A model generated the notes under the pieces. That model made no database searches. It saw only the letters and a list, made by a program, of their open reading frames with translations, and was not told the origin of the DNA. This document shows positions 4,611 to 62,505 of a DNA stretch of 64,000 nucleotides, one piece after another. The stretch's first letter is position 1; every line of letters begins with the position of its first letter. The stretch is from Paramacrobiotus metropolitanus (taxonomy: Eukaryota; Tardigrada; Eutardigrada; Parachela; Macrobiotidae): NCBI RefSeq assembly GCF_019649055.1, contig NW_026570226.1, positions 1,240,001 through 1,304,000 on the forward strand, given 5' to 3'. The position numbers and the translations under genes are program-made.

Positions 4611-4693
4611 GGTCGGGGAGTATCGGCAACTCACCTGACCTAAGACCGGAACCTAAACCGCCGGACATAACCCCTGTACAGTCACTAACCCAC

Positions 4694-6247: not shown

Positions 6248-7064
6248 CATAATAACACTTCGAAGACAAGTGGCCCAACATCCTGGCTTAACCGTCAGCA
6301 TATGGCCGAAATATGACCTGAGCCTGACCAACGTCAGGACCATACCAGAACCATTGCCAGAAGCAGCACCGCATATAGCGACAAAAGTGCGCTTCAATGA
6401 TGGCCCACACCCAGAACAGGGAGGCCATCGAAGGGACACCAGCCAGAATGAGCAGGACCCTTCATCGGAGGAAGTCCAACTGACTTGTCCTCTATGTGGA
6501 GACGGCGTTGAAGCGGTAATACGGGCTATACAAACCCGTTCGACTCAACGTTGGGCAAGAGGCCGACCAGCCTCGCCATTCCCTAACGGGAGCCGTCCAA
6601 CCACTTCGGCGGAACCGGACGAACCTGAGAAACAGGAAATCGCAACCGGGACGCCAGAGATCCAAAAAGAGGATCTTATGACCACACCGGCACCAACGGT
6701 GACCGGCAGGCCGCCAACCTCTAACGAGGACAATGGCGAGCCAAAACCTGAGCAGGACGATAAACCCGAGTCTACCGATTCGGACGTCCAAAGCTCAAGT
6801 GACTCACCGGACACGGACTCCGATAACCAATCATCGGAGGAGTCAAGTGATGACGAAGAGGACACAGAAATTCTCCAACTCCGAGCCGAGGCACCGATAA
6901 TCCGCAAACTGCGGACCGAACGTCCAACGGACTGCCTTAAGGAGGAGAGAGAAGTTGTCTTCGTTCATCAGCGGTACACTTACCAGCCTACTCAACTTGC
7001 TGGATTAAGGTCCGGTCCTATCGGACTATGGACCCGGGACGGCCAATCCACTTTAAATCGCTGA
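6051..7064 (+). CDS. Pol linker segment between protease and reverse transcriptase
   Basis: This frame carries the protein-like continuation after the protease: a helical block (WPQIAEQYGPFAQELDDLV, then DLFDDIITLRRQVA) followed by a CPLCGDG CxxC-type motif at about 6499-6519. An acidic Ser/Asp/Glu-rich tract (about 6745-6865) comes next, then LKEEREVVFVHQRYTYQP. I recognise no known domain. The frame stops at 7062-7064. A better continuation lies one base back, from a CCCGGG run (7033-7038), and runs to an in-frame TAA at 7163-7165. It is the only junction in gag-pol entered by an apparent +1 rather than -1 shift. Confidence 0.55.
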   Translation: MKTKGAPLTWPQIAEQYGPFAQELDDLVQEGALWEDERLALVWEYREYHMEAPKALQKMCTDLFDDIITLRRQVAQHPGLTVSIWPKYDLSLTNVRTIPEPLPEAAPHIATKVRFNDGPHPEQGGHRRDTSQNEQDPSSEEVQLTCPLCGDGVEAVIRAIQTRSTQRWARGRPASPFPNGSRPTTSAEPDEPEKQEIATGTPEIQKEDLMTTPAPTVTGRPPTSNEDNGEPKPEQDDKPESTDSDVQSSSDSPDTDSDNQSSEESSDDEEDTEILQLRAEAPIIRKLRTERPTDCLKEEREVVFVHQRYTYQPTQLAGLRSGPIGLWTRDGQSTLNR

Positions 7065-7165
7065 GACGACCACACCGCTTGGTCTTACCGATCGAAGCGG
7101 AGGTCCAAACTCGAAATAGCGAACATGCGTGGATCCAGGTCCAAAATAAGTCCCGACGCGACTAA

Positions 7166-8101
7166 ATCCTCCGCAAAGGTGCAAAGATTGGCCATAAGTA
7201 CTATAGCGACATTTATGAGCCAGACATCAAGGAGGATGGCGTAGATTGGACCATTCCCAATGCCGACGCCTTACCATGGCCAAAAGTGGCAGGGAATAAT
7301 CCAAACCGGTACCGCACCATTAACGACCATGCTATGGTCCGGGCAACTGTAAAAGTGGAACTCCCACCGGAGTCCATCACCCCGGTCCAACTTAGCATTG
7401 ACTTTCCTGTCGACCCAAGACAGAAACTCATGTACCTCGGAAGCCAAGACACCAAACGGAGTCTGGCCATGCTCGACGGACCAGTCCAGCATGATGGCAC
7501 TAGTTTCACCATACTGGTGTCAAACTACTCCAAAGAGCCCCATATACTCCGGAAAGGAGTCAACATGGGCCAAGTGGAGCCATACGAGGAAATCTCGGAT
7601 GAAGATTACGCCAAGATCAACTCCCTCCAAACCGGAGAGGAAGATCCAGAAGTGGAGCGTGAAATCCGCGCCCACATCGCCAACGCACATTTTGGCGACC
7701 ACCTGACCGAGGAGCAGACCGCTCTACTCCGTCAGGACTTATGGGAACTCAGGGCCATATTCCCGACGTCCAAAAAGCCTTACGGCGACGTCAAAGGAGT
7801 GACCCACGTCATAGAAGTTGGCGACGCTGCACCAATCAAAATGAACCCAACCCGAACGAGTTGGAAGGGACGAGAGTTCATAAATAAGCACGTCCAAGAA
7901 ATGTTGGACCAAGGCGTGATTGAACCGTCCATGGCAGCGTGGAGTTTCCCAGTGGTCCTCGCTTCGAAGAAAAACGGCGACGGGACCATGGGCACCAGGT
8001 TCTGCATAAACTACATAAAGCTGAACACGGTGACCACACATTGCCCAATCCAGACGAACTCCTGGATCAATGTGCAGGAAACGCCTACTACGGCAAGGTA
8101 G
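7166..8101 (+). CDS. pol: Reverse transcriptase, N-terminal part with upstream linker
   Basis: The frame is open on both sides of a TAA at 7163-7165. After the stop it encodes a beta-rich linker (DWTIPNADALPWPKV, then LDGPVQHDGTSFTILVSN) and then the start of Ty3-type RT: QEMLDQGVIEPSMAAWSFP and VVLASKKNGDGTMGTRFCI, the fingers region. The linker may match the dUTPase-like or G-patch-like spacer found before RT in some gypsy elements, but I cannot assign it. RT continues in the next frame from about 8040-8050, where a CCC run (8044-8046) lies at the junction. The last 15 or so codons here are out of frame. Confidence 0.8.
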   Translation: MLRKGAKIGHKYYSDIYEPDIKEDGVDWTIPNADALPWPKVAGNNPNRYRTINDHAMVRATVKVELPPESITPVQLSIDFPVDPRQKLMYLGSQDTKRSLAMLDGPVQHDGTSFTILVSNYSKEPHILRKGVNMGQVEPYEEISDEDYAKINSLQTGEEDPEVEREIRAHIANAHFGDHLTEEQTALLRQDLWELRAIFPTSKKPYGDVKGVTHVIEVGDAAPIKMNPTRTSWKGREFINKHVQEMLDQGVIEPSMAAWSFPVVLASKKNGDGTMGTRFCINYIKLNTVTTHCPIQTNSWINVQETPTTAR

Positions 8102-11100
8102 ACTGTCAGTCCGGATTCTGGCAAATCCCTATGGACCCAGCGTCCATGGACTACACTACCTTCGTGACTCCAGAAGGGATGTTCCGGTTCAAACGAATGC
8201 CGTTTGGCGTCTGCAATGGGCCAGCCACATTCCAAATGACTATGGACAAGATTATGGCGCCGGCCCGCAAACAAGGCGGCGTCTTCGCATACATCGACGA
8301 CGTGATATTCTTCGGCAAAACATTCGAGGAATTCAGGAAGGCGTTCAGAAACACGCTCCTCTGCCTCAGAGACGCCGGGTTCACGATAAAACCGTCGAAA
8401 TGCGAATTTGGAATGGAAAAACTCCAATTCCTTGGACACATCCTCAGCAAGGACGGTGTCCATACTGATCCCGAGAAGGTAGCGGCCATCGCCGAGAAAC
8501 TACCGCCCAAGACCGAGCGTCAACTTCGCTCGTTTCTTGGACTCGCTAACTATTACCGGAAGTTCATTCAGGGCTACGCCCAGAAGACTTCCAAGATGTA
8601 TGAACTCCTGCGGAAGGAAAGTTCGGTCAAGAACGACTGGACTGACGCCCACACCGCCGAGTTCAATGAAATCAAAAAGGCCCTAACGGAAGCCCCAATA
8701 TTGGCCAAATTCGATGCGACCAAGCAGACCACCATCGAATGTGATGCAAGTGGTGCCGGCATCGGAGCCATACTCAGCCAGGACTCGAGGCCAATTGCCT
8801 ACGCAAGTCGTGTCCTACATGGTGCTGAGAAGAACTACGGCGTGACCGAATGGGAATGCTTAGCCGTAGTATGGGCCGTCCAAAAGTTTAAACACTACAT
8901 CGACCACGGGCCATTCACAGTAAGGACGGACCATAGAGCCCTAACCAACCTGCTAAGATGCGAGTCTAACCGGCCCGGCATCAACCCTCGTCTTACTCGA
9001 TGGGCCCTCGCCTTACAGGGACGGGACATCACCATCGAGTACAAGCCAGGCACATTCTGCGACAATGCTGATGCTTTGTCCAGATGGCCACTCGAACGGG
9101 ACGATGACAAAGGCCCACACGAAGAGTTGGACCAAGTCCCTAACTTCGAGGATTATAAAGACGAGATCCCAGCACGCATCATAAAGGTGCGCAGGCTGCA
9201 AGTCACGGACGAGGACCCCGCAAATGAATGGGACAAGCCTCTCCTTCCCGATTGCAACGCAATCACAGATTGGGACCAGTTCAGCACGGCGGACATAAGG
9301 GTGATCAATGTACCGGCGCCCACACCGGGAGAGCCAGAGCCCGAAGTCCCACCGTGTCCAGAAAAAGTCACGGACCGCACCGCGCAAGAACTGCGACGGA
9401 TGCAACATCGCGACCCAACTCTGGCCAAGAAAATCCACGAGTTGGAACACCAAAGCGAAATGGATAAGAGGTCCAAATTACCCGAACATTACCAGATGGA
9501 CAAAGGTGTGCTCTACCGACTCACCGAAATCAACGCGAAACTCGAAAGGAGATTCGTTGTCCCTCTGTTCATGCGGAAAAACATTATCCAGTCCCTCCAT
9601 GATGGAAAAACAGGGAACCACTTTGGATACCGCAAGACCATCGAAGCAGCCAAACTCCGGTACTACTGGGACCGCATGAGCTGCGACATTCACGACTACA
9701 TCGACCGATGTCAGACGTGTATCTTCGGCAAAGTACCGCGGCGAGCTACCTACGGTAAGCTGCAGCCGACCGAAGCTGTTGCGCCTTGGTACCGCGTCTT
9801 CGCCGACTTCAAAGGACCTCTACCGGTGACCCAGACAAAGAAATACCGGTACATCGCTGTGGTGGTCGACCAAATGACGAAGTTCACCATAGCCCGGCCG
9901 ACCAAGACAAACTCGGCCAAAGAATTTGAGAAGTTCTTTGTCGAAGAAGTCGTACTAAAGTACGGCATGCCACATACAATGCACTCCGACCGGGGCACGC
10001 ATTTTACGGCAAAATCCTTCGCCAAGGTGGCGAAAATCTTCGGCATCGAGCAGACCTTCGGATCCGCTTATCACCCAGAGGGCCAAGGCCAAGTCGAACG
10101 CCAGATGCAAACCATCTGGGACGGAATTCGAAACTTTGGCGGCGCCGGCGACGAACATCGTTGGCACCGGGCCCTACCTTACGTGATCTCCGGCATGAAC
10201 CGTGCCGTTCACGCAACCACTGGATTCTCGCCATATCACATGTTATATGGACGAGAAATGACCATACCGCAAGACGTCCTCGCTGGGACCAACGTCCCAG
10301 AAACATTTACGACTAACAAACGTTACGTCAAGAGGATGCAACAGCGCCTGAACCGGGCGCATGAAATTGCGAAAACGCGGATCGAAGAAGGATTCCTCAG
10401 GGACGCGGCTATCTATAACAAAAAGAAGTCGCAGGCCGAGTTCCAGAAGCGGGACTTGGTCACCCTGAAGAACATGGTAGACGACCCGACCAACCCAAAC
10501 AAGTTCGAAGGCGTCTACATCGTCATCGGCATACCTAAGCCGAACACTTACTGGATCCGAGAGCGAGACACTGGTGTGGAACACACCGTATGTGTCGATC
10601 GCCTAAAGCCATACCTTAACCCGGAAGGCCCGAGTCGCAGAATAACTCGCTCAACCAAAAAGAGGGGCGGCGACGCGGAACCTCAACCCACAGAGTCGGA
10701 AAGGTGCAACAACAAGGCAGAGCCGGGACAAAACGCAGAGCTCTCATACGCCCAGAATAAATTGGAGGAGCTGCTGAAGAAGCAGAAGCCCGGAAAGGGC
10801 CCGTCCAAGAAACTTGTGGCGGAGCAGCAAAAGACTCTGCAAATCCCAGGCCATGGCCCACCTGATCCGAAGACATCAGACCCAGCGCCACCAATGAAGC
10901 GTGGCCCAGGCCGACCTCGAAAGGCCAAACCGGATTTCGAGACACCGGCCCTTCAAAAGCTTCAAAACCAGCCGTTAACCGTCATTGACCCAACTCTGGC
11001 CCCGGCGGAACCAGAAAAAGGACGTCCGCCACGGACAAGCCAGCGGCGACCGAAGAGCCAAAAGTGGTCGCGACGCCCAAAGAGAAGCCCAAAAGACCAA

Positions 11101-11148
11101 AAACGCCTAAAAAGCCTAAGGCAACCCTTACGGCCCAGCAGGTCCTAG
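7939..11148 (+). CDS. pol: Reverse transcriptase palm, RNase H and integrase
   Basis: In-frame protein-like sequence begins near 8045. RT palm: KVDCQSGFWQIPMDP, then MPFGVCNGPATFQ, and the catalytic YIDD at 8290-8301. RNase H: TIECDASGAGIGAIL at about 8731-8775, with a later TDHRAL. Integrase: His residues of the zinc finger near 9595-9640 and RCQTC at about 9707-9721, then a DD35E triad with Asp codons at 9805 and 9988 and Glu at 10096, which leaves 35 residues between the second Asp and Glu. A GVYIVIG segment near 10510 fits the C-terminal GPY/F module. This is a complete Ty3/gypsy catalytic set. A long basic Pro/Lys tail follows. It leaves this frame at an A5 run (11015-11019). Confidence 0.92.
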   Translation: MEFPSGPRFEEKRRRDHGHQVLHKLHKAEHGDHTLPNPDELLDQCAGNAYYGKVDCQSGFWQIPMDPASMDYTTFVTPEGMFRFKRMPFGVCNGPATFQMTMDKIMAPARKQGGVFAYIDDVIFFGKTFEEFRKAFRNTLLCLRDAGFTIKPSKCEFGMEKLQFLGHILSKDGVHTDPEKVAAIAEKLPPKTERQLRSFLGLANYYRKFIQGYAQKTSKMYELLRKESSVKNDWTDAHTAEFNEIKKALTEAPILAKFDATKQTTIECDASGAGIGAILSQDSRPIAYASRVLHGAEKNYGVTEWECLAVVWAVQKFKHYIDHGPFTVRTDHRALTNLLRCESNRPGINPRLTRWALALQGRDITIEYKPGTFCDNADALSRWPLERDDDKGPHEELDQVPNFEDYKDEIPARIIKVRRLQVTDEDPANEWDKPLLPDCNAITDWDQFSTADIRVINVPAPTPGEPEPEVPPCPEKVTDRTAQELRRMQHRDPTLAKKIHELEHQSEMDKRSKLPEHYQMDKGVLYRLTEINAKLERRFVVPLFMRKNIIQSLHDGKTGNHFGYRKTIEAAKLRYYWDRMSCDIHDYIDRCQTCIFGKVPRRATYGKLQPTEAVAPWYRVFADFKGPLPVTQTKKYRYIAVVVDQMTKFTIARPTKTNSAKEFEKFFVEEVVLKYGMPHTMHSDRGTHFTAKSFAKVAKIFGIEQTFGSAYHPEGQGQVERQMQTIWDGIRNFGGAGDEHRWHRALPYVISGMNRAVHATTGFSPYHMLYGREMTIPQDVLAGTNVPETFTTNKRYVKRMQQRLNRAHEIAKTRIEEGFLRDAAIYNKKKSQAEFQKRDLVTLKNMVDDPTNPNKFEGVYIVIGIPKPNTYWIRERDTGVEHTVCVDRLKPYLNPEGPSRRITRSTKKRGGDAEPQPTESERCNNKAEPGQNAELSYAQNKLEELLKKQKPGKGPSKKLVAEQQKTLQIPGHGPPDPKTSDPAPPMKRGPGRPRKAKPDFETPALQKLQNQPLTVIDPTLAPAEPEKGRPPRTSQRRPKSQKWSRRPKRSPKDQKRLKSLRQPLRPSRS

Positions 11149-11351
11149 AAGAGGACGTAGTTGCTGATGATGAGGCGGATAAAGACTTACTCACCCGCAT
11201 AACCACGGGACGGGAAAAATCTGAGAAAGTCTCAAAGGGCAAAAAGCAGAAGTCCAATACGGTCCTACCGGACGTATCGGACAAGTCCAGTACAGTCCCA
11301 CCGGACGTACTGGACAAGACGGTCGATAAGGCTGGACAGAATGTCGTTTAA
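11064..11351 (+). CDS. Basic C-terminal tail of pol
   Basis: This short frame carries the protein-like continuation of the integrase tail: a Lys/Pro-rich stretch (PKEKPKRPKTPKKPK), an acidic patch (EEDVVADDEADKD) and Lys/Ser-rich sequence ending at TAA 11349-11351. The first codon is GTG within the overlap, so it is not an independent start. Basic integrase tails often bind nucleic acid or chromatin; a chromatin-tethering role is inference only. A near-duplicate VLPDVSDKSST / VPPDVLDKTVD pair sits at the end. Confidence 0.55.
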   Translation: MVATPKEKPKRPKTPKKPKATLTAQQVLEEDVVADDEADKDLLTRITTGREKSEKVSKGKKQKSNTVLPDVSDKSSTVPPDVLDKTVDKAGQNVV

Positions 11352-11581
11352 AATAATATCCGATAGGATATCTGACACGGTAGACTTAGACGTCTCCGTG
11401 AGCTGCTACCGAAATTAACTAACCTAAATTTAACTAACCTAACTCTAAATGACCAGTAGCTTAAAAGTAGCTTAACTTGGTCCAATATCTGTAACCTTAT
11501 CTGACAGGGTAGCTTATAAGTAGCTGGCCGTACATTGAACTAACAAAGTAGGTAGGAGTCTAACACCGCGTGATTCGTCTC
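11352..11581 (+). other. Spacer between pol and the giant accessory ORF
   Basis: This 230-bp spacer has no ORF. It has direct repeats of CTAACCTAA/TTAACTAACCT (about 11415-11445) and of AGTAGCTTAAAAGTAGCTTAA (about 11456-11475), with AGTAGCT again at 11519. It is a candidate place for a second promoter or splice acceptor feeding the downstream ORF. I see no convincing TATA box. Confidence 0.4.
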
Positions 11582-14500
11582 ATGACAGCGCCCCATTCAA
11601 CGATGGAAGGACGCCGACGAACTGATCGCTCAGATGACTCCGACCGAAGCAACCGACTACATCCATATTCACGACCGGAATCCCGGTCGGGTGGATCCTC
11701 CACTCGGTCGTCTAACCGGCCTCCGAGTGTCCAGGTACCCAATATTAGAGCTAACTTAACCGCTGAGCAGCTGGCAACTATGTCAGTTGGCCCCCGTTCA
11801 CGGGCTGACACACCGCTACCGCGGGTCCAGCCTCTGCCACCTCGAGCCATTCCGCCACAACTCTGGCCGCCAGGGACATTCTCTGACGTCACTGGACTCT
11901 TGGTGAACGCAGCAGTAGCTGGCAGCCAGCCAAGCTCTACATCGGGCCAAACGGTCCGACGTTACCCTCAGGGCCCAACCGGCCCACCTCAACCAATCCT
12001 GTATGGTGGCCTACCGACCACTTCGGCAAATCAGCCGGTTTTTACAACTGCGGCAGTCGGGCCAACGGTCATGACTACGCCGGTCCATACTGGACCGCGG
12101 CCACAGTTTACCCCACCGCCATACTACAACCCACATTATGGATATCCACCGTATCCTGCGCCTGGACCTTCAAACCAGCCGCAGCCAGATCCAAACCAAT
12201 GGCGATACCCACCACCGTGGATGTATCCGCCAGGACCTTATGGATATCCACCGCCTTATGGCGGATATGGAGCATACGGCCAACCGCCGTATAGCCCACC
12301 TTCAGCGGCACAACCTGACCCTACGGGTCAGGCGCCGTCTGATTCATCCATTGAGCCTCCACGAGCGGGACCGGAAGCGTACGCAACTCCAGCGCCGCCG
12401 GAAACCCAGCCAAGCATATCACGGCCCGACGGGTTACGTGATTACCCATTACGGGTATTCGTGGACGGACGATTAACAATTTACAACCGGCCAGAAGAGG
12501 TCCCACCAACATTGGCGGCCCAACTTGGCCTAGCCGAACCGGAACCAGCGGCACAGCCAACGCCTAACCCAGCGTTGACTGTCCCATCAACCTGCATCAT
12601 ATCTGACATGGTTGAACCTATATCATCGCCAATGCCAGACGATGATGAAGATGAAGGGGACGTCCAGGTGGACCCAACCACTCCACCAATGAGGATTGAA
12701 TCCCCTACAGAACTTTTGGCCGACGGCCGGACTCCACTCTACCAACTTCAGGACAATCTGAAGGACGTAGAGAATGCCATCCAAGAATTGGAGGCCATGA
12801 TTCGAGAATTGGACAGGCGCAGCCCTCACTACCGTGAGTCGGCCCAGCGCATCCTCCTCGATCAAGAAGAGTTCCGGCGCCTCGCACACGAACTCAGCGA
12901 GGAAATTGCGACCCGCCAGGCTCAGCACGAGATATTTCCTCTGCATGACCAAACCGGTCAGGCATTGCTGGCGGCATCTCGCAGGCTGAGGGATCAGCTG
13001 GTACAGCACCGGACGGACAGACAGCTAAGGACAGAAGGATCCGTAGCACCAACACGTCCGCCACCAGCACCATCAGCATTGCCTCCAACGAACCCAACAG
13101 TCGTAGTTACCACTACGACTGGGGAATCTTCCGCGCCACCAGTGGCCCAGCCTACGTCTACCGACGAGGCAATGTTAATGGCCACTGGATTGGAACCGCG
13201 AGAACCAGCATCATCTCCGTACGACCTGAGGGCTTATCCAGACATACCGCCTCTGGAACGTGAACTTCACGCGGCGGAACTCCTAGAGGAGGAAATCCGC
13301 AAAGCCATCACCAGTCTGAAAGGCGTGGACATCGCCATTATGCGGAGAAAAGTCGCGTTGGACTTAGAATTCCAACGCGTCCTGGAATACATAACCAGGA
13401 TCCGACGGGCCATGCTGCGGTTTATGGATAAGCCATTAAATACGGCTAACGACGCGCCAGCATTGCGCGACTTCCGTAACCGGCAGTACCAGCTTGGCCT
13501 GATCGACGAAGCACTTAGGCGCGTGTTGCCTAAACCCCGACCGGGGCAGCCAACACGCGTCGGACAAACTGGACTTCTCACGCCGACATTTTCCTCAACA
13601 CGCCAACCGGCGGAAGAATTGAGGACGCGGTTTTTGAGAATTATGCGGATCCCGGCGGAGCGATTTGCAGCCGGACCGGCACTCAGTCGACCAGCCAGCG
13701 CGTCGGATACAGAAACCGACAGCGACATCGACTGGTTCGACACGCCAGATCCAATTCCAGTACCAGGATTAACAGCTCCGCCTGACCACATGGTCGCGCC
13801 AGAACGACAGGTCCACCCTAGACCAGGTTCACTGGCGCCGCCACCAGAAATAGCGGAACGCCTGGAACTGATTATGAGGGCCAACGTCTCGCAAGGCAGA
13901 CCGGCTTATGCGGACGACTTCCCTGTGTTAGGCCAATTGGCCAACGCCAATCAACCAGTCCCTCGGACTTTACGTCAACAGTGGGACGAAGAACAAGCAG
14001 CAGCGGACCAACGGTTACGCGAGGCTGACACCGGACCCATTAGGATGACGATCCCTCAGGCACTGAGGAATAGGAACCTCATTAGAGATGCCGAGGACAT
14101 TGAGCGTCGCCTAACTAACCAGATCCGAGATCTCAGCCCATTCGACCCAGAAGCGGTCAGGCTGACAGAACAGCAACAGAGCCTTACCCAACGGTTGGCT
14201 CTGCTCAGGGATCTTACTCCGAACAGTACGATGCCTACCGGCCAATCGTTAACTGTTTTGGACCATACCACAAGATGGATCCGTGAATTTATCGAAGATT
14301 ACTGGAAGGTCCAACGACCTGGCCCGTCAACGACGGCACGCCCCAGTGACTTCGATCCAGTAAACGAATGGCGACCATCACCAGTGTCTGCGCCAGCACC
14401 TTTGGCCCTGACACACGAACCGGCCGCCTTACCATCAGTTGGACAGCCAATTCCAGCTGAGTTGGCCCAGGCCCTAACGGTGCCTGGTCCAACATCAAGC

Positions 14501-17500
14501 CAATCCGTGGACACTGCTGGACCTGCCATAGCGGACAGCAGCAAAGAAGTTCCACCGCAGGACGTCGAAATGGACGTGAGCCTGCCCGACAATACCCTTG
14601 AGCTTTTGTCGGAAAAGTCAGCTGAAACGGAGTCGACACCAGCCCAACCGGCTGGTGAACCGATAAGTCCAATGGCTGTTGATGCGCCAACGGCGTCATC
14701 ACAGCGCATGTCGAAACCAATTGAAGGCGACATATCTGGTGGTACCCTTGTTGTCCGACCAACGGACAGAAAATCGACAGGAGGAAGGCCAGAACCAGCC
14801 ACTCCTGCCACAACAAGTGGTCCACAGTCGCCCAGGTTCAAGAAGAAGAAGAGGACTCCTCCAGAAGCCGAAGAGCCTCCTTCGCAGCGGTCACTCCCAC
14901 CTTGGAGAGAACCGCGTGAAAACCTGGAATTAACTCGTCCAATCAGGTCCACTCCACCAGCGTGGAGTGGCCCGCCAAGGGACTCAGACGCTCCCGGCCC
15001 TACCAGGCCTGGCCCGTCCATACTTAAACCGAAGAAGGCGGAACCACCGACTTTGATACTTCGTGGCCTACCGGCCAAGAAGAAGAAGTCGCCGCCGAAG
15101 AACTTTCCTGGCAAGGGACATGTGCTTTCCCCACCGGAAGCACCAGCGATTCCGTCAGGAACAACTCAGCCATTGCGGGACGAACCTCCAACGAGGCATC
15201 GTATCCGATTGACTCAAACGGAGTCATGGGATGACCCGCACAACCGGGCTGTAAGCGAGATCATAGAACTTGATCTACGCTTAAACCTGACTGAGGAGGA
15301 CATGCGCCAGCGACTACGCGCCGGCGATCCCACATTAACGGACCGCGAGATTGACCGCATCAACCGAGGTTGTCAATTGATGGTCCAAGAGCGGACAATC
15401 CTCATCAGAAGATTGATGGCCATGCGAAGCAGGAGCCAGGCCCTTCGCCAACGCAAGTTGCCTAGCGAAATCATTGAGCATGCCATCTATATCAGGGGCC
15501 CACACATTAACCCAAGGGCATGGACAGTAGAACCGCGCCCACGACCAGGCCAGCCAGTGGAAGACGAACTTCCACCGGAAGAGGCAGAAAGCGAGGACGA
15601 ACGTCCTCAACTGCCTGCGGCCTTCTGGGGCGTTACATCCAGCGAGGAGTCGGAGATCGAAGAAGATTTGGACGAACAAGTCCAAAGGGCGCTATATGAG
15701 ACCAGTCAGGTCCGGCCACCTTCAACGAAGGAATCGCCACGCCGAAGTCGATCTCCGTCAAAAAGGACTTCTCCTGGACGCGCCACATCAACCCCGGCGC
15801 GAATGCCTAGCATGCCGGCCATCGAACCGGCGCCTGCCAGGTTCACACCGAGCCGGCCAGGCAAATCCCCGACCAAAGAGAGGATGGACACCACACCTCC
15901 TCCAGAGCCAACCATGACCATTACTGTGGAACGAATCGCAGCACCTACGGTGTCTGCAGGTTCATCACTTGAGCCAGTAACGGTCACGGTTAGAACTCCT
16001 GCACCAGTGGTCGCAGAATCGGCCAGAATGATGGTGCAGATAACTCCGGCTGTCTCGGACCAAGAAGTGGAAACCGACACGGCCCTGATGCCCATGAGTG
16101 CTCTCACCCCTACCGAGCAGAGACACTTATACGTCCACTCTGACCAAAATGAGCGACGGCGATACCGGTTCCTGCTCACAAAGAGACAGGAGGCGAAGGA
16201 GCAGAATAACATGGAAGAATATGACATGTTATCTGAGATGCTCGCGCCATTAGTTTACCGAATGGTAAAAGATTACCGGACCCGTCGCAACCAAAGGGCC
16301 TTTCCCCCACCGGAGCAAGACCCAATGATGACTGAAGCCCTGCTGTCAAGTGCCCCACTGATTGTGGCACCGCCAAAGACGCAGGCATCTCCAGCTTCAG
16401 AACCAATGGATACTTCTCCGTCCGGACCTGTGGCCGTAGAGCCACAGCCAAAACCAGTCCAACCGGAGGAGTCACCGAAGGCCACTTCGTCGGCACAGGA
16501 ATCGGCAGGCCAAAGTCAGTCCGGAACAGGGTCAACGGCCGCTACTCCGACAATATTGACGAACATGCCCGCCAGTGTCGACGACATACCTTTTGGCCGT
16601 CCAGTAACTTTCCCCATAACCGGGACACTGGATAATTTGGCACTTGGCATGGGTGTGATCCACTCAGCTAACTCCCAACGGAGTAAGCAGCCAAGGAAGG
16701 CCAAAAACCCAGAGAGGGCCAGACCGGCCTCTCGTCCAGCTTCTCCTCAACCGAGGGCCAAACCGGCCACTCGTCCAAACTCCCCTCAACCGAGTGGAAG
16801 TCAGGCGGCCACACCTCGGCCAACATCTAACCCAGAGGCCGAAAGGAACCGCCAAAAGAAACAAGCGGCCAAGGACAAGAAAAGTCAAGAGGCCAAGATC
16901 GCCCAGCTCGAAAAGCGGCTGTCAGGCGATGAAGACGTCCAAGTCCTATCGGACAGTCCAGATAAACCAGCAGAGCCCGCATTAAATCGCTCACGGCGGG
17001 ACGAGGAGTATGAACCACGCTTCGGGCCAGAACCGCCCTCAGAAGAAGTCATGCTTCCCTCGCCCTGGGACGATGAGGCCGAGCTACCGGATCCTGGACC
17101 GGAGGCCACACACATAGAGGTCCCAGCGGATCACTATGTGCGATTAACTGTGGCAGCCGCCAGGGCTATGAGGCGCGCAACAGGACGGGACATGTACCAA
17201 TGCCTCGTCTGCGTCCTTAGGTCCCGTATGAAATATAAGGAAGAATACCAGGGCCTACCGCCAGCGGACCGTGTACTAACGGCACCCTTTATGCGGCGGA
17301 TGGTATCTCGGATTCTGGACATGGGACTTCTGGTCCGCACACACCGTGATTGGACCAGCATGATGGAACTACACGTGGCCCATCGGCCAGCAGGACTTTC
17401 CCGTAGCAGGGATTTTCCTTTCCATCAGATATGCAGGACCATCGCTTACCTGCACAACCCCAGAGGGTCCAACCTGACCGATATTGCCAGGACACTCAAC

Positions 17501-19210
17501 GCTCTCTATTACCAGGGAGAAGAGAATCTGGATAAACTCACTACCAGACTGGCTGATGAGTTAATTGCGCTGGTCAGGGAAGGAACCCTAGAAACGACCA
17601 ATGCACACAGGGCGGAACCAATTCGCTTCACCATCCCGGGATTCATCCCACAGAAGACCCAACGGTCTCTGTATGTGTCACATGACGTTGACACAAAATG
17701 GGATCCGGACAGAAAGAAAGCGGTTGGACCGCCGAAGGACAAGCTGACCGGCAGAGCCAAGGAGGCTTACTTAATCTCCCAAGAGGCCAAACTGCCAGGT
17801 CCAAAGAACTTGCCGGTTGAAAAGCCCCCTCGACCATCGGTCACTAGAAGGGAGAAGGCTGCACGGCAAGAAGTTGAAGAAGAGATGCGCGCGGCCGGAA
17901 TCCGACCCGTGCCAAGGGACACTGTGTCACTGCCTAACGCAGCTGGCCAGTCCAGACCTCCCTCACCGACTCCGTCAGCCACATCAACTAAGAGTCGGAA
18001 GACTACGGCCACAAAGGCCACGGCTGCAAAGAGGAGCGGGAGGAAGGGCCCGCTACCACCGGGCCGAGACATATCGGACTCTGAGGACTCCGAACCGGAG
18101 AACTCAGAGGAGGAACAAGAAGAGCCGGACCGGGACCAAAATATGGAATCCCAAAAGTCCGACTCGGATGACAATGACGATGATGACCAGAGCCCTGGTA
18201 AACTGACCATTAACGTCCCACCGGACCATGACATGGAAATTCCACCTGGTGATGAAAATCAGCCACCTAACGGTGACCAGGACATGGAGGACCAGGGCGG
18301 CGCAGAAGACGCCAGTCAGGACCAGAGCGGCGCAGAAGGCGCCGATCGGGAAAGTCAGGCCAGCGTAGAAGACGCTGAGCCAAGTGGAAGCGGTGCACAG
18401 CCCGAACGGGACAGAGTGCGAGACTCCACCTCACCAGAGTCGAATGACGGTGAGATTCAATGGACTTTACCCGACCCATGCCCGGCCAAACCGCGCATTG
18501 ATTATGTGCCGCCACCGAGAACCACGGTGGCGAGGAAATGGCCCGGCGGAGATCCATCAAAGAAGCCGAAGATCTCCAATACGGACGAGACGTGGGCATA
18601 CATTAAGGCAGCCTTAAAGGCGTTGTCCCAAACGGGTACAACCCTTGCTACAGGAGGCTTGGCCTTCCAACTTATCCAGAAATGGAATGGCCCACCAATC
18701 ACCAAGTCCAAGGTGATGAAATACATTAGAATGGCCTATGAAGAAGGAGCCATCCTTCGAACCCATCTGCCCAACATGCAGATGTTCTACACGTTCCCAC
18801 CGGAAAGACGTGATGAAGCACCTCAAGGCTACTGGGAATGGCGAAATGCCATCTTGGCGGTACTGACCACCACGCAACATCCCTTGGGCCTGACAAGAGG
18901 CGAAATGGCCAATCAACTCCTTGGACGATACGATGTACAACTTTCGACGTACGATCCTCAGCTGAGTGACGGGAATGAATATCCCCCTAGTCGCCCCAAC
19001 GGGTTGTACTACCTCAGCGAGGACGTGCGATACATCGTCAAAAAGATGCTGCGCGAAGGCTGGCTCGAGCAAACTGTCGACGAGCCAGAAGCCCAGCAGC
19101 GGTATCGGATGAAGAATAATCCACCGGATCGCTATGGCCCTCGTCCCACCGAACCCGCCTCCTTGGCCTCAACCAAGTCCAAGAAGAAGCGGCGCACTTA
19201 CCATCAGTGA
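11582..19210 (+). CDS. Giant accessory protein with C-terminal winged-helix-like domains
   Basis: The ORF runs uninterrupted for 2,542 codons from the ATG at 11582 (a second ATG is at 11603). I do not recognise the protein. Residues ~60-330 are Pro/Tyr-rich. Residues ~380-1650 are Pro/Thr/Ser-rich linkers broken by short Arg/Glu-rich helical modules (near residues 390-460, 560-650, 830-880, 1220-1290 and 1510-1570) that look like degenerate copies. Residues ~2080-2300 are strongly acidic. About four winged-helix-like units occur near residues 1855-1915, 1945-2030, 2335-2410 and 2420-2520. The clearest has LTRGEMANQLL, then VRYIVKKMLREGWLEQT, then a basic wing. DNA or chromatin binding is inferred from this fold-like pattern. 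The codon and word style (frequent CCAAC) matches gag-pol, so it belongs to the element. No signal peptide or membrane segment is seen. Confidence 0.8.
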   Translation: MTAPHSTMEGRRRTDRSDDSDRSNRLHPYSRPESRSGGSSTRSSNRPPSVQVPNIRANLTAEQLATMSVGPRSRADTPLPRVQPLPPRAIPPQLWPPGTFSDVTGLLVNAAVAGSQPSSTSGQTVRRYPQGPTGPPQPILYGGLPTTSANQPVFTTAAVGPTVMTTPVHTGPRPQFTPPPYYNPHYGYPPYPAPGPSNQPQPDPNQWRYPPPWMYPPGPYGYPPPYGGYGAYGQPPYSPPSAAQPDPTGQAPSDSSIEPPRAGPEAYATPAPPETQPSISRPDGLRDYPLRVFVDGRLTIYNRPEEVPPTLAAQLGLAEPEPAAQPTPNPALTVPSTCIISDMVEPISSPMPDDDEDEGDVQVDPTTPPMRIESPTELLADGRTPLYQLQDNLKDVENAIQELEAMIRELDRRSPHYRESAQRILLDQEEFRRLAHELSEEIATRQAQHEIFPLHDQTGQALLAASRRLRDQLVQHRTDRQLRTEGSVAPTRPPPAPSALPPTNPTVVVTTTTGESSAPPVAQPTSTDEAMLMATGLEPREPASSPYDLRAYPDIPPLERELHAAELLEEEIRKAITSLKGVDIAIMRRKVALDLEFQRVLEYITRIRRAMLRFMDKPLNTANDAPALRDFRNRQYQLGLIDEALRRVLPKPRPGQPTRVGQTGLLTPTFSSTRQPAEELRTRFLRIMRIPAERFAAGPALSRPASASDTETDSDIDWFDTPDPIPVPGLTAPPDHMVAPERQVHPRPGSLAPPPEIAERLELIMRANVSQGRPAYADDFPVLGQLANANQPVPRTLRQQWDEEQAAADQRLREADTGPIRMTIPQALRNRNLIRDAEDIERRLTNQIRDLSPFDPEAVRLTEQQQSLTQRLALLRDLTPNSTMPTGQSLTVLDHTTRWIREFIEDYWKVQRPGPSTTARPSDFDPVNEWRPSPVSAPAPLALTHEPAALPSVGQPIPAELAQALTVPGPTSSQSVDTAGPAIADSSKEVPPQDVEMDVSLPDNTLELLSEKSAETESTPAQPAGEPISPMAVDAPTASSQRMSKPIEGDISGGTLVVRPTDRKSTGGRPEPATPATTSGPQSPRFKKKKRTPPEAEEPPSQRSLPPWREPRENLELTRPIRSTPPAWSGPPRDSDAPGPTRPGPSILKPKKAEPPTLILRGLPAKKKKSPPKNFPGKGHVLSPPEAPAIPSGTTQPLRDEPPTRHRIRLTQTESWDDPHNRAVSEIIELDLRLNLTEEDMRQRLRAGDPTLTDREIDRINRGCQLMVQERTILIRRLMAMRSRSQALRQRKLPSEIIEHAIYIRGPHINPRAWTVEPRPRPGQPVEDELPPEEAESEDERPQLPAAFWGVTSSEESEIEEDLDEQVQRALYETSQVRPPSTKESPRRSRSPSKRTSPGRATSTPARMPSMPAIEPAPARFTPSRPGKSPTKERMDTTPPPEPTMTITVERIAAPTVSAGSSLEPVTVTVRTPAPVVAESARMMVQITPAVSDQEVETDTALMPMSALTPTEQRHLYVHSDQNERRRYRFLLTKRQEAKEQNNMEEYDMLSEMLAPLVYRMVKDYRTRRNQRAFPPPEQDPMMTEALLSSAPLIVAPPKTQASPASEPMDTSPSGPVAVEPQPKPVQPEESPKATSSAQESAGQSQSGTGSTAATPTILTNMPASVDDIPFGRPVTFPITGTLDNLALGMGVIHSANSQRSKQPRKAKNPERARPASRPASPQPRAKPATRPNSPQPSGSQAATPRPTSNPEAERNRQKKQAAKDKKSQEAKIAQLEKRLSGDEDVQVLSDSPDKPAEPALNRSRRDEEYEPRFGPEPPSEEVMLPSPWDDEAELPDPGPEATHIEVPADHYVRLTVAAARAMRRATGRDMYQCLVCVLRSRMKYKEEYQGLPPADRVLTAPFMRRMVSRILDMGLLVRTHRDWTSMMELHVAHRPAGLSRSRDFPFHQICRTIAYLHNPRGSNLTDIARTLNALYYQGEENLDKLTTRLADELIALVREGTLETTNAHRAEPIRFTIPGFIPQKTQRSLYVSHDVDTKWDPDRKKAVGPPKDKLTGRAKEAYLISQEAKLPGPKNLPVEKPPRPSVTRREKAARQEVEEEMRAAGIRPVPRDTVSLPNAAGQSRPPSPTPSATSTKSRKTTATKATAAKRSGRKGPLPPGRDISDSEDSEPENSEEEQEEPDRDQNMESQKSDSDDNDDDDQSPGKLTINVPPDHDMEIPPGDENQPPNGDQDMEDQGGAEDASQDQSGAEGADRESQASVEDAEPSGSGAQPERDRVRDSTSPESNDGEIQWTLPDPCPAKPRIDYVPPPRTTVARKWPGGDPSKKPKISNTDETWAYIKAALKALSQTGTTLATGGLAFQLIQKWNGPPITKSKVMKYIRMAYEEGAILRTHLPNMQMFYTFPPERRDEAPQGYWEWRNAILAVLTTTQHPLGLTRGEMANQLLGRYDVQLSTYDPQLSDGNEYPPSRPNGLYYLSEDVRYIVKKMLREGWLEQTVDEPEAQQRYRMKNNPPDRYGPRPTEPASLASTKSKKKRRTYHQ

Positions 19211-19400: not shown

Positions 19401-20622
19401 ATGGGACTTACACCACAGCAGAAGTACGAACCGCGATGTTCGGACTGCAGGCGCAACAGCGGAGACCAAAACCGCCGGGACAACGCCCCACGGGAATTGT
19501 TCCCTTGCGCATACCACCTGCGGCCGGGCTTCCGCGACGAGTGACAGAGCCTACTGCTTCTACTTGGAAGTGGTGAGAGGCAACTTTGAGGCATACTGCC
19601 ACATGACCAGCCGCGATGGAAGCCACCTGTTTCCCCTACTGAGGGACCATGAGCAGATAGAGATCTACGATCTCTACATGCAACGCAGTGGTGACCGACA
19701 ACCTGGCTGGAGCAGTACCGGAACCCAGATTCCTCCACTCAGCCAATCGGCTCGAGAACGGAAAGAGGAACGAGACCGGGAACGTCGAGCCCGTAACACG
19801 GGTTCTGACCAGTCCTCAGGGCGCGGCCCAACGGCCGCCCCGAAAACATATGGACATCAGCAACGGCCATCGTCAGGCTCTCAATCCTACGGATATGAGA
19901 TGTCTACACCGACGACATACAACCAGATCCTGGAAAACATCAACAAAGCTATGGTTGACCAGGTGGCCAAACAGCTGATGGAAGGTGGACTGTTGGACGC
20001 CCTGAAAGGCCAATATCAGCCAGCGCGTACAGAGCAACGTACGCCACTGGCACCGCTACCGCGGAACCCAGATGACTTACGTCATCAGATCCACAGCCGC
20101 AACCAGGACCAAACTGGCCGCCGTAGCCAGCCCGAGGAGCGCCAAACGCGCACATCACCTGGGAAACGGGGCGAGGCAGAGTCCAGCCTGGTTGTCGCTC
20201 AGTCCACCAAGCGACCAGAAAGAAGCGTCAGCTCGGTGGCCCACAATATCAGCATCCAGATACCAATGGAGACGGAGTCCGCACCGCCGTCATCGGACCC
20301 ACCGGCCCGACAAGACGCAAGCGTCAGTGCCACGGACTTCGACCCATATAAACATGCTGAGGACCAGGGCATCAATATCCGGCCACGTCCCCATCGGGAG
20401 GTGACGGATTACATCATGGGCGCTATCCCATACCCTAGGGATCGATGGGCCCAAGTCAATGCCATGGTCCAGAATCTGCAAACCTTCGTCATCCGGTCCG
20501 GACTCGAGATGGAAATGCAGAAAAGGAGTGGCCCCGTGCTTTCAGCATGGCGGAACATATCGATAACCGCGAGGGCTACCCCATGGTCCGTGATAATGCT
20601 CTATCGAGCATCACGGACGTGA
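19354..20622 (+). CDS. Third ORF, first part (unknown protein)
   Basis: The convincing protein in this frame starts near 19537 (AYCFYLEVVRGNFEAYC). Upstream, a different frame from the ATG at 19401 gives a better N-terminus, MGLTPQQKYEP followed by a CSDC...PCAYH cysteine/histidine pattern, and breaks off at a stop near 19543. So the true start is probably 19401 with a 1-2 nt indel between. The rest is Arg/Gln/Ser-rich and disordered, with one helical segment (ILENINKAMVDQVAKQLME). Protein-like reading leaves this frame at an AAAA run (20521-20524) and continues in the next frame. I recognise no family. The position after pol resembles that of env in errantiviruses, but no signal peptide or transmembrane segment is visible. 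Confidence 0.5.
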   Translation: MDLTLFCKFHFCYHREWDLHHSRSTNRDVRTAGATAETKTAGTTPHGNCSLAHTTCGRASATSDRAYCFYLEVVRGNFEAYCHMTSRDGSHLFPLLRDHEQIEIYDLYMQRSGDRQPGWSSTGTQIPPLSQSARERKEERDRERRARNTGSDQSSGRGPTAAPKTYGHQQRPSSGSQSYGYEMSTPTTYNQILENINKAMVDQVAKQLMEGGLLDALKGQYQPARTEQRTPLAPLPRNPDDLRHQIHSRNQDQTGRRSQPEERQTRTSPGKRGEAESSLVVAQSTKRPERSVSSVAHNISIQIPMETESAPPSSDPPARQDASVSATDFDPYKHAEDQGINIRPRPHREVTDYIMGAIPYPRDRWAQVNAMVQNLQTFVIRSGLEMEMQKRSGPVLSAWRNISITARATPWSVIMLYRASRT

Positions 20623-21335
20623 ACTTACTCGGACAGCCCGTTACCAGACCGGACTGGAACGACTTGTGCCAACTGCACATAAAGGACGACCAACTCGACG
20701 TCGTCAAATACCTGGCCCAGTTCGTCCTACCGGACGCGAACGCCAGTTTCATAATGGCAGCCGCCAGAGCCGCCATGGAAATCCCATGCAAACCGGCTGA
20801 CCATAAGGATAACCCGGAAACGCAGATTTACTCGTACAACGGCACGATGTTACGCATCTTCGCCGCTAGACTCGGACACCTACGGTGCCACTGGGAACTT
20901 GAAGTTGCCTATCGGCAGGGGAAAATCATTCCTCGCTTATTGACCCAAGTGGCCCTCCTAGGAAACCAAATCCATGAAATCGAGGCGGGAGTCAAAATCC
21001 AAAGCGCCCTGAATGTTTTCAGGAGCCGCCCCAAAGACTACCGTTATCGCCATCCAACGGACTTCGACGACGGTGCGGAAGCGTTCGTTAACCGAACGGC
21101 AGCGCGGAAACTTCCAACGAAGTTTCGCACTCAACGATCCTCAACAGGATCGTCCGCACACGTCCAGACCCAGGCCGAACAGTCTGGCCCAGAAGTCCAG
21201 CCGACCAGCACCTCCAGCCAACATCAACATAACCTGACTGAACAGGAATTGGCGGACATGGAGGAAAGCGTCGTTGACCCACTCAACCCAGGGTTGGGCG
21301 ACGGCGACCAAGCCGGACAAGGAGGGCAGGAATAG
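20445..21335 (+). CDS. Third ORF, second part (unknown, helical)
   Basis: Protein-like from about 20525, this frame continues the previous ORF after a 1-nt offset at A4 (20521-20524). It encodes a mostly helical domain: DWNDLCQLHIKDDQLDVVKYL, FIMAAARAAMEI and MLRIFAARLGHLRCHWELEVAY, followed by a Gln/Ser/Thr-rich acidic tail ending at TAG 21333-21335. There are no Cys pairs, membrane segments or catalytic motifs I can name. A structural or nucleic-acid-associated role is possible but unsupported. Confidence 0.5.
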   Translation: MGPSQCHGPESANLRHPVRTRDGNAEKEWPRAFSMAEHIDNREGYPMVRDNALSSITDVNLLGQPVTRPDWNDLCQLHIKDDQLDVVKYLAQFVLPDANASFIMAAARAAMEIPCKPADHKDNPETQIYSYNGTMLRIFAARLGHLRCHWELEVAYRQGKIIPRLLTQVALLGNQIHEIEAGVKIQSALNVFRSRPKDYRYRHPTDFDDGAEAFVNRTAARKLPTKFRTQRSSTGSSAHVQTQAEQSGPEVQPTSTSSQHQHNLTEQELADMEESVVDPLNPGLGDGDQAGQGGQE

Positions 21336-21655
21336 GCCAACGGCCATTCCTGCATGTCGGCCCTAAAATTGGACCGGCATCGGCTGAACCGGACTTGAAC
21401 ACCATAGTGGGCACAATCCAACGGTTGTGACCCTCGCCCAACAAACGTGGCTTACAGCCATGTATCGTCCACCTCACCGGACCTTAATCCCTGGATCTTA
21501 ACCGGATTCCCCGGATTGGCTCTGGCTTAGCGGCTGGGACCATGAATTTGGCTCGGCCATCCCAGACCATCCGACGGAGTCCACCGGACCGAACTTGGCA
21601 CAAGGCCTGGTTCACCGGCATGGAAAGGATCCAGCGCCCAGAAGGCGGCGACGGC

Positions 21656-21785
21656 CCGCATAGAAGTTGCGACAAGCCGTGGATCGATCCTGGCCCGCAT
21701 AGAAGTTGCGACAAGCCAAGGATCAGCCTGGCCCGCATAGAAGTTGCGACAAGCCAAGGCCAAGTCCTGGCCCATAGAAGTTGGA
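21656..21785 (+). repeat. Tandem repeats of 37-39 bp around CATAGAAGTTGCGACAAGCC
   Basis: Four copies begin TAGAAGTTG at 21661, 21700, 21738 and 21775 (spacings 39, 38 and 37). The first three share CCCGCATAGAAGTTGCGAC. A further isolated CATAGAAGTTG occurs near 21876. The copies lie 320-440 bp after the last ORF. Confidence 0.8.
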
Positions 21786-22054
21786 CCAGGCCCACTATGC
21801 GTCTAACCGACCATAGATGGCTCACGAGTTCAGTTGCCATACCAAGGAACTGGGACAAGTGAGTTCGGGAGCCACATAGAAGTTGTGGTACACCCATTTA
21901 GCATGCCACGTCCAACATCCTCACCACGGACCGCCCAGAGGCCCATCCAAAAGATGCACCGCCCAGAGGCCAAATGAGGATGCTTCTAGTCAGTAGACCG
22001 ACTCCTTTGTGGAAAACGCCTACCGGCGCCCACAACTTAATTTTTTGGAATTTT

Positions 22055-22440
22055 TTTGGCCCGCCATACACCTTGGACCGTCGAAAAAACGACTAAGTCC
22101 TTTTGGCCCGCCATACACCTTGGACCGTCGAAAAAACGACTAAGTCCTTTTGGCCCGCCATACACCTTGGACCGTCGAAAAAACGACTAAGTCCTTTTGG
22201 CCCGCCATACACCTTGGACCGTCGAAAAAACGACTAAGTCCTTTTGGCCCGCCATACACCTTGGACCGTCGAAAAAAAACGACTAAGTCCTTTTGGCCCG
22301 CCATACACCTTGGACCGTCGAAAAAGCGACTAAGTCCATTTGGCCCGCCATCAATTTTGGCCCATCGAAAAACGACTAAGTTTTTTGGCCCGTCCAACGA
22401 CGTGGCTCATCAAAAAAACGACTAAGTCCACATCGGAGAG
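22055..22440 (+). repeat. 47-bp minisatellite with hairpin-forming unit
   Basis: Copies of TACACCTTGGACCGTCG start at 22067, 22114, 22161, 22208, 22255 and 22304. The spacing is exactly 47 bp except for one 49-bp step caused by two extra A's. Two degenerate copies follow, to about 22430. Each unit has GTCG-A(n)-CGAC, a 4-bp stem around an A-rich loop, then TAAGTCC. The near-identity of copies suggests recent amplification. Confidence 0.9.
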
Positions 22441-23640
22441 CCAAAACCTGTTATACAGGACCTCAACGTCCCACACCAGCCGGAGGTGAGCCATATCACA
22501 ATAGAACCTCGTATCCCGGCCCAGAGCATGTCAGAGACCGAGTTTGGACCGCCCCAACGGGTTTGGTCCATCACACCACCTCGGTCCTGGGACTTGGAAA
22601 ATTTTTCCATTGTGGCCCTCTTGGACTTAGAAGATTTTTGGACCTAGGCGCATGACCAAACTGGCATGCAAGGCCAAACCGGTCCAAGTTAGAGACCCAT
22701 GTGAACCACCCTAACGGGACTGGTCCAAAGCACCAATTTTGGCCACTGGGAAGGAATCCGACAGGACTCCCACTCCCGCCACACCAGGGACAACCCTAAC
22801 GGGTCAGGTCCAATAGAGGCATGTCAGACCAAAGCATGGCCATCCTAACGGAATTGGTCCAAGCATACTATTTTGGTCACAGGAGCACCTCTCCTGTCCA
22901 GAGGCAATACTCTGGCCCTATATGGACAGCCCAACCGGGCTTGGTCCACCATACTTGAACCAGGAAGGGGACAACCTGTCCTTGCGCATGCAACCGTGCC
23001 TTCCTTATACCGCACCGCTGGATTTACTCCACTGGACCCCTGTGGACATCTCTGGGAACCGTCGCCCCGGATCTACAGGACCAGACCAATCCTAACGGAT
23101 ACAGCGGACCGTTGACTAGGACCCCTGTGGACTAAAGTGGCCCTGTGGTAAACCTAGTCGGAATAAGCCATTTTTCGTCTAGTTTTTTAACCATACCTGG
23201 TTTTTCTAGACTTTATTAACCAAAGAATTAATGTTTTTATTTAGCCATTTAACCAAAGGAATTGGCTTTGGGATCTCTAACTATGATCTTACTTTCTTAA
23301 ATTCTCACCGAAATTGTGATTTTTTTTTTATTTCGATGTTTAACCCATGAGCCTTATAAACTTTATTTTTTTACCTGTTCGACCAACCGAGCCTTCAAAC
23401 CACACTGGAACCCCCAGCAACCAGAGTGCACTCCAGATTTCGGCCGTTCGGTGCACTGCACCGCGGGTCTGGAGGAACCGACCCTACCGGGTTTAGAGAC
23501 AAAGTGGCATCCGGCCCTACCGGGTATCGGATCCTGGCACCCTACCGGGTTGGCCAGGGGCAGAGTCGGAAGGTGCTCGCAGGAGCTCCCACTCCCGCCC
23601 AGAGGCATGTCAGAGACCGCACACTCGAGGCGGTAGACAC

Positions 23641-24959
23641 CTCTTGTGGCTTTGCTCTGTCGCCCGCCCGCGCACGGCTACTCCATTCGTGCCGCGCTAT
23701 TACGCTGCTCACTCAGCGTATACTTTGTCTACGCTGACCAATCAGCGCATTTCTGCACTCTTGGGGGCGTAGCCCAGCGCCTACGAGCGATTCTATGCTT
23801 TACGGCATCAGCTGTTGCGTACCCGCAGCACGCTGCATCATTACCACTTTTACTGACTTGCGCGCTCGCAGCTACTTTTTCCACAGTGATACCGCATTGG
23901 TTTTCTGTGTTTGTTTGTGGTTGCTTTATTGTTACCAATAAAGGCGATATTTGCCCCATTTTTCCATCTGCTTCTGTGTCATATCTGACAACCATGAGGG
24001 ACCGAGGGAAATCATGTTCCACGATTTTTAACAGCTGAGGCAGCTGAGTTTTATCGAGCACAATCATGTGAATGCCGCTGATACTAATCCACCCGTATTA
24101 ACCTCGACGATCCCAAAAACCGTGAATTTTAGGCGAATCTCAAACAATTTCGGACGTCGGTTTCAGAAAACTGCAAACCGAAGCGTGCACACAGGCTTAT
24201 AAAAAAGGCAGCGGAGTATTGTGTCCATGTAAACTTTTTACGTGGATTTTTCTTTTCTGCTTGATTATCACTTTATTAGTTATTACCGCCATGTTGCTTT
24301 CGAGTATAGATATGACTTTTAGGTACCCATACAGTTCTACACACCGAGCGTGCTGGTTTTGGAATTAACTGATGCTGATTAGATTATAAACACTAACGGT
24401 AATCCAACGAGCAATAACAACTTCCGTAGATTTTACAGCTTATCGTCAGTTTTTCAAATACTGTCACAGACAGTATCACTTCTATACCGCAAATTGCCAA
24501 TGACACCACAGCCGCGCCACGTGCGCCCGGATCCGAGTCCGCCCAGTGGAGGTTTGTTTTCTCAAGTATAATTCAAGTGTGGGAAAGCCGACGTTCAGTC
24601 TGGATAAAAACGTGCGTCGTACATGTAACGCCAACCTAATGTTTGTTAATTTGTTACAGTTGATCAACTAATTTTCGTATACAGTAAGTCCATATTAAAA
24701 CGCAATGCTTGTCGAATGTGGTATCCATCATCCATCATGAAGGATACCTCCGCATTTTCTAGACATGATTGCACAGTCTCCGAAATTGTACGCAGGTAGT
24801 ACACACAAACAAAACGGTATGAGAAGCAGTTTCATTTCTTGATTACAATCGTCAAAACTCAGAACCGATTAGTTCAACGTACAACTAACAGCAAACGAAA
24901 AATTTCGACCTACAGACGACTGCAAAACAGTGCCAAGTAAGATCGTCGAAGACGGTAAA
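23641..24959. other. Transition from G+C-rich retroelement to A+T-rich host DNA
   Basis: There is no gene. At 23640-24060 a stretch has a CCAAT box (GACCAATCAG, about 23737-23746) and a polyadenylation-type AATAAA at about 23937 followed by T/G-rich sequence, as an LTR or terminal exon would. It shares no visible sequence with 1-445. From about 24100 the DNA is A+T-rich, without coding signs. A short palindrome GGTATCC...GGATACC lies at about 24719-24748. Confidence 0.4.
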
Positions 24960-62456: not shown

Positions 62457-62487
<31 letters not shown>

Positions 62488-62505
62488 AAAGAATAAGACT
62501 TTCAG

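Follow-up and report, generated by a model that had tools for sequence, protein, structure and literature searches.

A giant accessory gene predicted to encode serial winged-helix units in a ~25-kb Ty3/gypsy-type retrotransposon of the tardigrade Paramacrobiotus metropolitanus

The window analysed here, a stretch of 64,000 nucleotides (C6:1240001–1304000) of the P. metropolitanus genome (169.8 Mb, 533 contigs), opens inside a long retroelement that sets itself off by base composition (GC 51–57% per 2-kb block over bases 1 to ~24,000 versus 35–48% elsewhere in the window). In window positions unless marked otherwise, the element comprises:

C6:1239051–1239432, 5′ long terminal repeat (LTR), ending 568 bases upstream of the window; 99.2% identical to the 3′ LTR
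446–4610, + strand, gag region of ORF1, with an MGQTES start and a CCHC-type knuckle (read from the translation); three frames in this copy
4598–11351, + strand, pro-pol: protease, RT, RNase H, H2C2 and integrase; several frame breaks; end at 11351 by sequence reading
11560–11588, + strand, 3′ splice-site-like signal 5′ of ORF2: CTAAC (11560–11564), 22 bases, AG (11587–11588)
11603–19210, + strand, ORF2, giant accessory protein; conserved start codon, 2,535 codons
19378–19397, + strand, 3′ splice-site-like signal 5′ of ORF3, TTTCATTTCTGTTACCACAG; pattern kept in 29 of 30 family loci (L009–L038, the exception being L032)
19401–21335, + strand, ORF3; frame broken here, open frames of ~666–680 codons in several other copies
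22054–22429, + strand, tandem array of eight 47-bp copies, 3′ of ORF3
23607–23990, + strand, 3′ LTR, TGTCAGA...TCTGACA, then the 4-bp target duplication ACCA

The element is a Ty3/gypsy-type LTR retrotransposon: its Pfam domains follow the gypsy order (RVP, RVT_1, RT_RNaseH, Integrase_H2C2 and rve, all upstream of ORF2), its 384-bp LTRs start with TG and end with CA, and ACCA flanks it on both sides. Directly 3′ of the 5′ LTR lies TGGTAGCAGA, a candidate tRNA primer-binding site with a putative match to initiator tRNA-Met. Calculated from the listed LTR ends, the element is 24,941 bp long with an interior of 24,174 bp, and six of ten LTR pairs among the 40 LTRs listed, this copy's included, span 24.6–25.1 kb. 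Pol proteins from outside the tardigrades are 28–44% identical to that of the element (among 120 proteins listed). The four coding regions, as bounded here, occupy ~20 of 24 kb, with ORF2 making up nearly one third of the element. Gag–pol lies in several frames in this copy and ORF3 is broken as well; ORF2 is whole. The MGQTES at the gag start (446–463) resembles an N-myristoylation signal. The heptamer GGGAAAC (4598–4604), read G GGA AAC in the gag frame, sits three bases 5′ of the gag stop (4608–4610); with pol open in the −1 frame, it is a candidate −1 ribosomal frameshift site.

Pfam gave no match to ORF3. Near its start, ORF3 has a CxxC motif in this copy as in two sister elements; its C-terminal part is 32–38% identical across element groups. 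Farther 3′, a shorter array of 38-bp units (21653–21783) precedes the 47-bp array, and AGAGCATGTCAGAGACCGAG at 22523–22542 contains the first 12 bases of the LTR. Beyond the element, the window carries a 739-bp direct repeat (99.6% identity) at 61968–63450.

Between pol and ORF3, a single frame stays free of stops over 11564–19210 (+ strand; 2,548 codons). Across 300 first-order Markov simulations of this stretch, stop-free runs reached 341 at most, and we rejected a chance reading frame on this comparison. An earlier note on this DNA had described an uninterrupted giant ORF between a gypsy pol and a third ORF, as is indeed found here, with the protease-to-integrase domains upstream. Its placement of the start at 11582 (~2,540 codons) required correction, because that ATG falls inside the splice-acceptor-like stretch, between CTAAC and AG, and is missing from three of the five aligned copies; an M(E/D)GRRR start at 11603 is present in all five. 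Residue numbers of ORF2 are nonetheless counted from 11582.

The N-terminal arm is rich in proline (22% over residues 1–300), as the note had proposed. Its suggestion of degenerate helical modules in the middle part was recovered by half: a profile built from five sister-element modules detected one of the two suspected here (837–871; 6.9 bits, with shuffled sequences scoring 3.6 at most) but not the second, and an initial search for such modules was circular, as it recovered nothing beyond the seeds and copies of them. Pfam recognized no domain in ORF2. Applied to a 23-row ORF2 alignment, it gave sub-threshold matches only, including two winged-helix families (RPA_C in three rows, Linker_histone in one) as well as unrelated families such as TetR_C_16 (two rows). 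Among PDB sequences the same alignment had weak matches, the best being origin recognition complex subunit 1 (E 0.024), over the disordered part. Structure prediction covered residues 1837–2542, which with the C-terminal tail comprise the following features:

17132–17374, + strand, winged-helix-like unit 1 (residues ~1851–1931); basic (+8), weakest of the four
17417–17632, + strand, winged-helix unit 2 (residues ~1946–2017); linker-histone-globular-like
17681–18553, + strand, acidic low-confidence linker between the winged-helix pairs; net −21
18587–18793, + strand, winged-helix unit 3 (residues ~2336–2404); basic (+5), Fur/SAMD1/KAT6A-like
18818–19117, + strand, winged-helix unit 4 (residues ~2413–2512); linker-histone-globular-like
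19175–19207, + strand, basic C-terminal tail KSKKKRRTYHQ; candidate nuclear localization signal

In the predicted structure, three helices are followed by a beta-hairpin wing, as in winged-helix domains, and the fold of the linker-histone globular domain is also present. The C terminus of ORF2 is thus predicted to hold three to four winged-helix units. They appear in both regions in which the earlier note had suspected them (residues 1840–2030 and 2330–2530), unit 1 being weak; the acidic tract that it had placed before all four lies instead between two pairs, units 1–2 (~1851–2017; domain A) and units 3–4 (~2336–2512; domain B). Foldseek searches with these regions returned no E-value below 0.09, and a viral structure library gave no match at E 0.001 or better. 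Pfam Linker_histone was the best hit of unit 2 of this copy, below threshold (15.8 bits; gathering cut-off 22.4), but matched none of the nine other unit-2 or unit-4 pieces scanned, sister units included. Against the PDB, a domain-A profile matched histone H1.0 weakly over unit 2 (E 1.1), with ribosomal L38e ranked above it (E 0.006), and a domain-B profile matched no PDB sequence. A test for duplication between the two pairs gave a weak signal (P 0.015, probability 3%).

The note had read the protein as a DNA-binding factor; the winged-helix fold and the two basic units (pI 10.5 for unit 1 and 9.8 for unit 3) fit this reading, binding itself being a prediction. Winged helices may also act as protein-interaction modules, in which case ORF2 could be a structural or particle component or a substitute for an envelope. 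ESCRT-II and MukF winged-helix proteins are among the Foldseek matches listed, units 2 and 4 are not basic and the basic tail is absent from sister rows, all of which would suit such a role, whereas the basic character of units 1 and 3 speaks against it and the ORF2 translation reads without a signal peptide or membrane segment; we consider it decidedly improbable. An envelope protein proper was rejected, given that ORF2 has no recognized domain and no membrane segment on reading.

ORF2 recurs across the genome as part of an element. In genome searches, in which all counts are lower bounds and family and sister groups are labelled by identity, a 400-aa piece of pol matched at least 104 rows (48 at 83–100%, one at 80% and 55 at 62–66% identity), and the last 758 residues of ORF2 had at least 65 matches (61–100% identity). 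We examined gene adjacency with all 104 pol rows (48 family rows and 56 others by rank, the 80% row among the latter) and with 54 of 65 rows for ORF2, 105 of 140 for ORF3 and 98 of 150 for the sister winged-helix domains; set aside were additional fragments of one locus, family members that appeared among the sister rows, and some rows of lower score. Among the matches listed, ORF3 lies within 6 kb downstream at 52 of the 54 family ORF2 loci and pol within 12 kb upstream at 31, both at 30 and at least one at 53. At the 98 sister loci, pol was listed upstream at 29, ORF3 downstream at 22, at least one at 43 and both at 8; these lists are too short for the remaining loci to be read as lacking pol or ORF3. 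Sister elements (pol 62–66% identical) carry an ORF2 of the same layout, seen in full detail for two (L043 and L044). Between family and sister elements, domains A and B are 29–42% identical, and the helical middle and linkers diverge far more by eye. Stop-free frames of 2,500 codons or more are found, with winged-helix domains, in at least five of the 65 family rows listed, and at no fewer than nine sister loci among 150 rows listed (longest, 3,302).

By simple counting (dS being saturated in some pairs, and the copies sharing history), dN/dS was 0.18–0.23 for the whole of ORF2 (five intact copies, ten pairs), 0.05–0.23 for domain A and 0–0.16 for domain B in those five copies, and 0.09–0.18 over 515–709 C-terminal codons in seven pairs from three sister groups (b, c and d). 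A passenger would drift towards 1, whereas the whole-ORF2 and C-terminal values lie at 0.09–0.23; these ratios indicate purifying selection on ORF2 in four element groups (a–d). The synonymous divergence between this copy and the copy C6b jumps along the gene, from a dS of 0.30–0.33 in the first 1,836 residues to 0.75–0.95 in domains A and B, suggesting that ORF2 copies are probably mosaic through recombination between element lineages. Against C6:2325000–2333100 and C110, synonymous divergence of ORF2 goes up two- to threefold between the N-terminal and middle parts and the winged-helix pairs, whereas domain B hardly differs between C6b and C110.

Protein relatives were sought in 5.77 billion proteins. 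With words from residues 1770–2542, ORF2 matched none at E 0.01 among 7,178 candidates; a search with the 23-row alignment (7,997 scored candidates) gave five matches, all of them P. metropolitanus gene models. These models (P0121–P0125) are named armadillo-like helical domain-containing protein 4, SETD1B-like and coiled-coil domain-containing protein 9-like, with two uncharacterized. The pol search of the same database returned 5,714 relatives with P. metropolitanus at the top, and hence the database includes this organism. The search scores only candidates that have short exact words in common with the query and fit it in length, and genomes are often annotated with their transposon genes masked, so the negative result for ORF2 should not be taken as absence from other tardigrades. 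At the sensitivity of the two protein searches, ORF2 has no homologue outside P. metropolitanus. The annotation can also be corrected, since pieces of ORF2 currently bear the names of an armadillo-like protein and of a SETD1B-like methyltransferase.

These gene models, together with the one family locus at which neither pol nor ORF3 is listed alongside, are what might be expected if ORF2 were a captured host gene, a passenger or a gene-prediction artefact with no role in the element. We regard this as very improbable in view of the low dN/dS in four element groups, the same gene order in diverged elements and the long stop-free frames at both family and sister loci. A free-standing host gene, which in the earlier note would have spoken against an element-borne protein, is contradicted within this genome by the adjoining pol or ORF3 at nearly every family locus listed, and was rejected. 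The giant accessory protein encoded by ORF2, with its serial predicted winged helices, is real, conserved and carried by the element.

How ORF2 may be expressed is suggested by signals around it. CTAAC, 22 bases and AG precede its start in all five family copies, and three of three sister loci have, by eye, CTAAC, a pyrimidine-rich stretch and AG 9–12 bases 5′ of the ORF2 ATG. In the 5′ leader, a donor-like CGGTAAGACC occurs in six of seven copies and CGGTGAGACC in the seventh, a change that retains the donor consensus; the GT of this candidate donor lies at C6:1239878–1239879. From these conserved donor- and acceptor-like sites we infer that the element makes spliced subgenomic mRNAs. Trans-splicing, which occurs in tardigrades, is an alternative that would use the same acceptors in place of leader-donor splicing. 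At the other end of the protein, KKKRR is found in eight of eight family rows and in none of the nine sister rows that reach the C terminus. This tail is a candidate nuclear localization signal, and its absence from the sister rows means that it supports nuclear entry in this family only.

An element that carries splice sites would need to export its intron-bearing genomic RNA, and ORF2 might be a CERV- or Rev-like nuclear factor that binds and exports the unspliced form. Besides the conserved sites themselves, this possibility draws on Cer1, whose genomic RNA depends for its export on CERV, a protein that is likewise made from a spliced mRNA and has part of its coding sequence after pol (PMC10309623). 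CERV is laid out differently, however (517 aa; predicted H, M and G domains), Pfam recognized no RNA-binding domain in ORF2, and the winged-helix matches listed are mostly DNA-binding or chromatin proteins. An export role is, in our estimation, on the unlikely side.

We tentatively propose, at slightly less than an even chance, that ORF2 serves a group of ~25-kb Ty3/gypsy-type elements as a functional accessory gene and encodes a nuclear factor that acts on chromatin. A spliced mRNA would run from the 5′-leader donor to the acceptor before ORF2, skipping gag–pol. The protein would enter the nucleus, in this family perhaps through its KKKRR tail. Its basic units 1 and 3, together with the histone-H1-like units 2 and 4, would bind DNA or nucleosomes, and its long Pro-rich, helical and acidic arms could recruit or exclude other factors. 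Most likely it would act on the chromatin of the element itself, to drive or de-repress proviral transcription or to sustain expression of the long unspliced RNA; target-site choice is a second possibility. A dedicated version of the latter would have ORF2 tether the pre-integration complex to chosen chromatin. Chromodomains control target sites for chromoviruses, and the units resemble the winged helices of linker histones, SAMD1 and KAT6A, which come from structures bound to chromatin or DNA; ORF2 is nonetheless a separate protein with no fusion to integrase, and we rate tethering as fairly improbable.

A narrower proposal would make ORF2 a linker-histone mimic, with paired winged helices, two of them H1-like, docking on nucleosomal DNA and displacing or replacing host H1 on the provirus, thereby keeping it transcribable or steering integration. 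The ORF2 units are 16–25% identical to the globular domain of linker histone H1/H5 (five top rows per comparison), and the H1-like units, unlike H1/H5, are not basic and are set within one very long protein. We think such mimicry unlikely; if true, it would define a giant gypsy clade that carries its own chromatin-architecture protein.

More broadly, if ORF2 binds chromatin, it would be a type of regulator that our literature searches did not turn up in any retroelement, and would give a means of studying how an RNA genome of 25 kb can afford a gene of 7.6 kb. Among the papers listed, these searches yielded no retroelement-encoded winged-helix protein by title or start of abstract and no paper combining 'Paramacrobiotus' and 'retrotransposon'; the giant element group was likewise not found described there, and the excerpt of a tardigrade repeat paper lists Gypsy among its LTR families without using the word giant. 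The earlier note knew of no retroelement family with such a protein, and protein, fold and literature searches gave nothing to contradict it; the kind of gene is not new, because accessory ORFs after pol are known (TRP28 of Retand and CERV of Cer1).

Among known systems, Retand has a long region between pol and the 3′ LTR, and its TRP28 protein probably can bind DNA (excerpts of PMC11963269 and PMC7264820). The TRP28 ORFs are antisense and the whole pol–3′ LTR region spans 2.9–6.6 kb in the same excerpts, whereas ORF2 is in sense orientation and measures 7.6 kb alone. A TRP28 element was rejected, as ORF2 lies on the pol strand and has no TRP28 (transposase 28) match in Pfam up to E 1. Ogre elements of plants also have additional ORFs, but owe their size largely to long LTRs (excerpt of PMC6431247). 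With LTRs of 384 bp, the 24.2-kb interior found here nearly reaches the 25 kb given for the interior of the largest gypsy-like elements, the Burro elements of planarians, which exceed 30 kb including LTRs (excerpt of PMC6431247). The extra domains of Burro (ankyrin, BIR, BCL2-like, MATH and Env-like) lie mostly within one polyprotein, as described in that excerpt, whereas the extra protein here is a separate ORF after pol. Membership in Burro was rejected on its marker domains, a Pfam scan of ten ORF pieces giving no ankyrin, BIR, BCL2-like or MATH match up to E 1. In Cer1, a Ty3/gypsy element of Caenorhabditis elegans, CERV is a spliced accessory protein shown to act in the nucleus, with N-terminal exons in the gag frame, a GTPase-like G domain and no obvious homology outside nematodes (excerpt of PMC10309623). 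ORF2, with its 2,535 codons and predicted winged helices, is set apart from CERV by that description; in position, between pol and the 3′ LTR, it corresponds to CERV in Cer1, and its conserved splice-like signals suggest that it may also come from a spliced mRNA.
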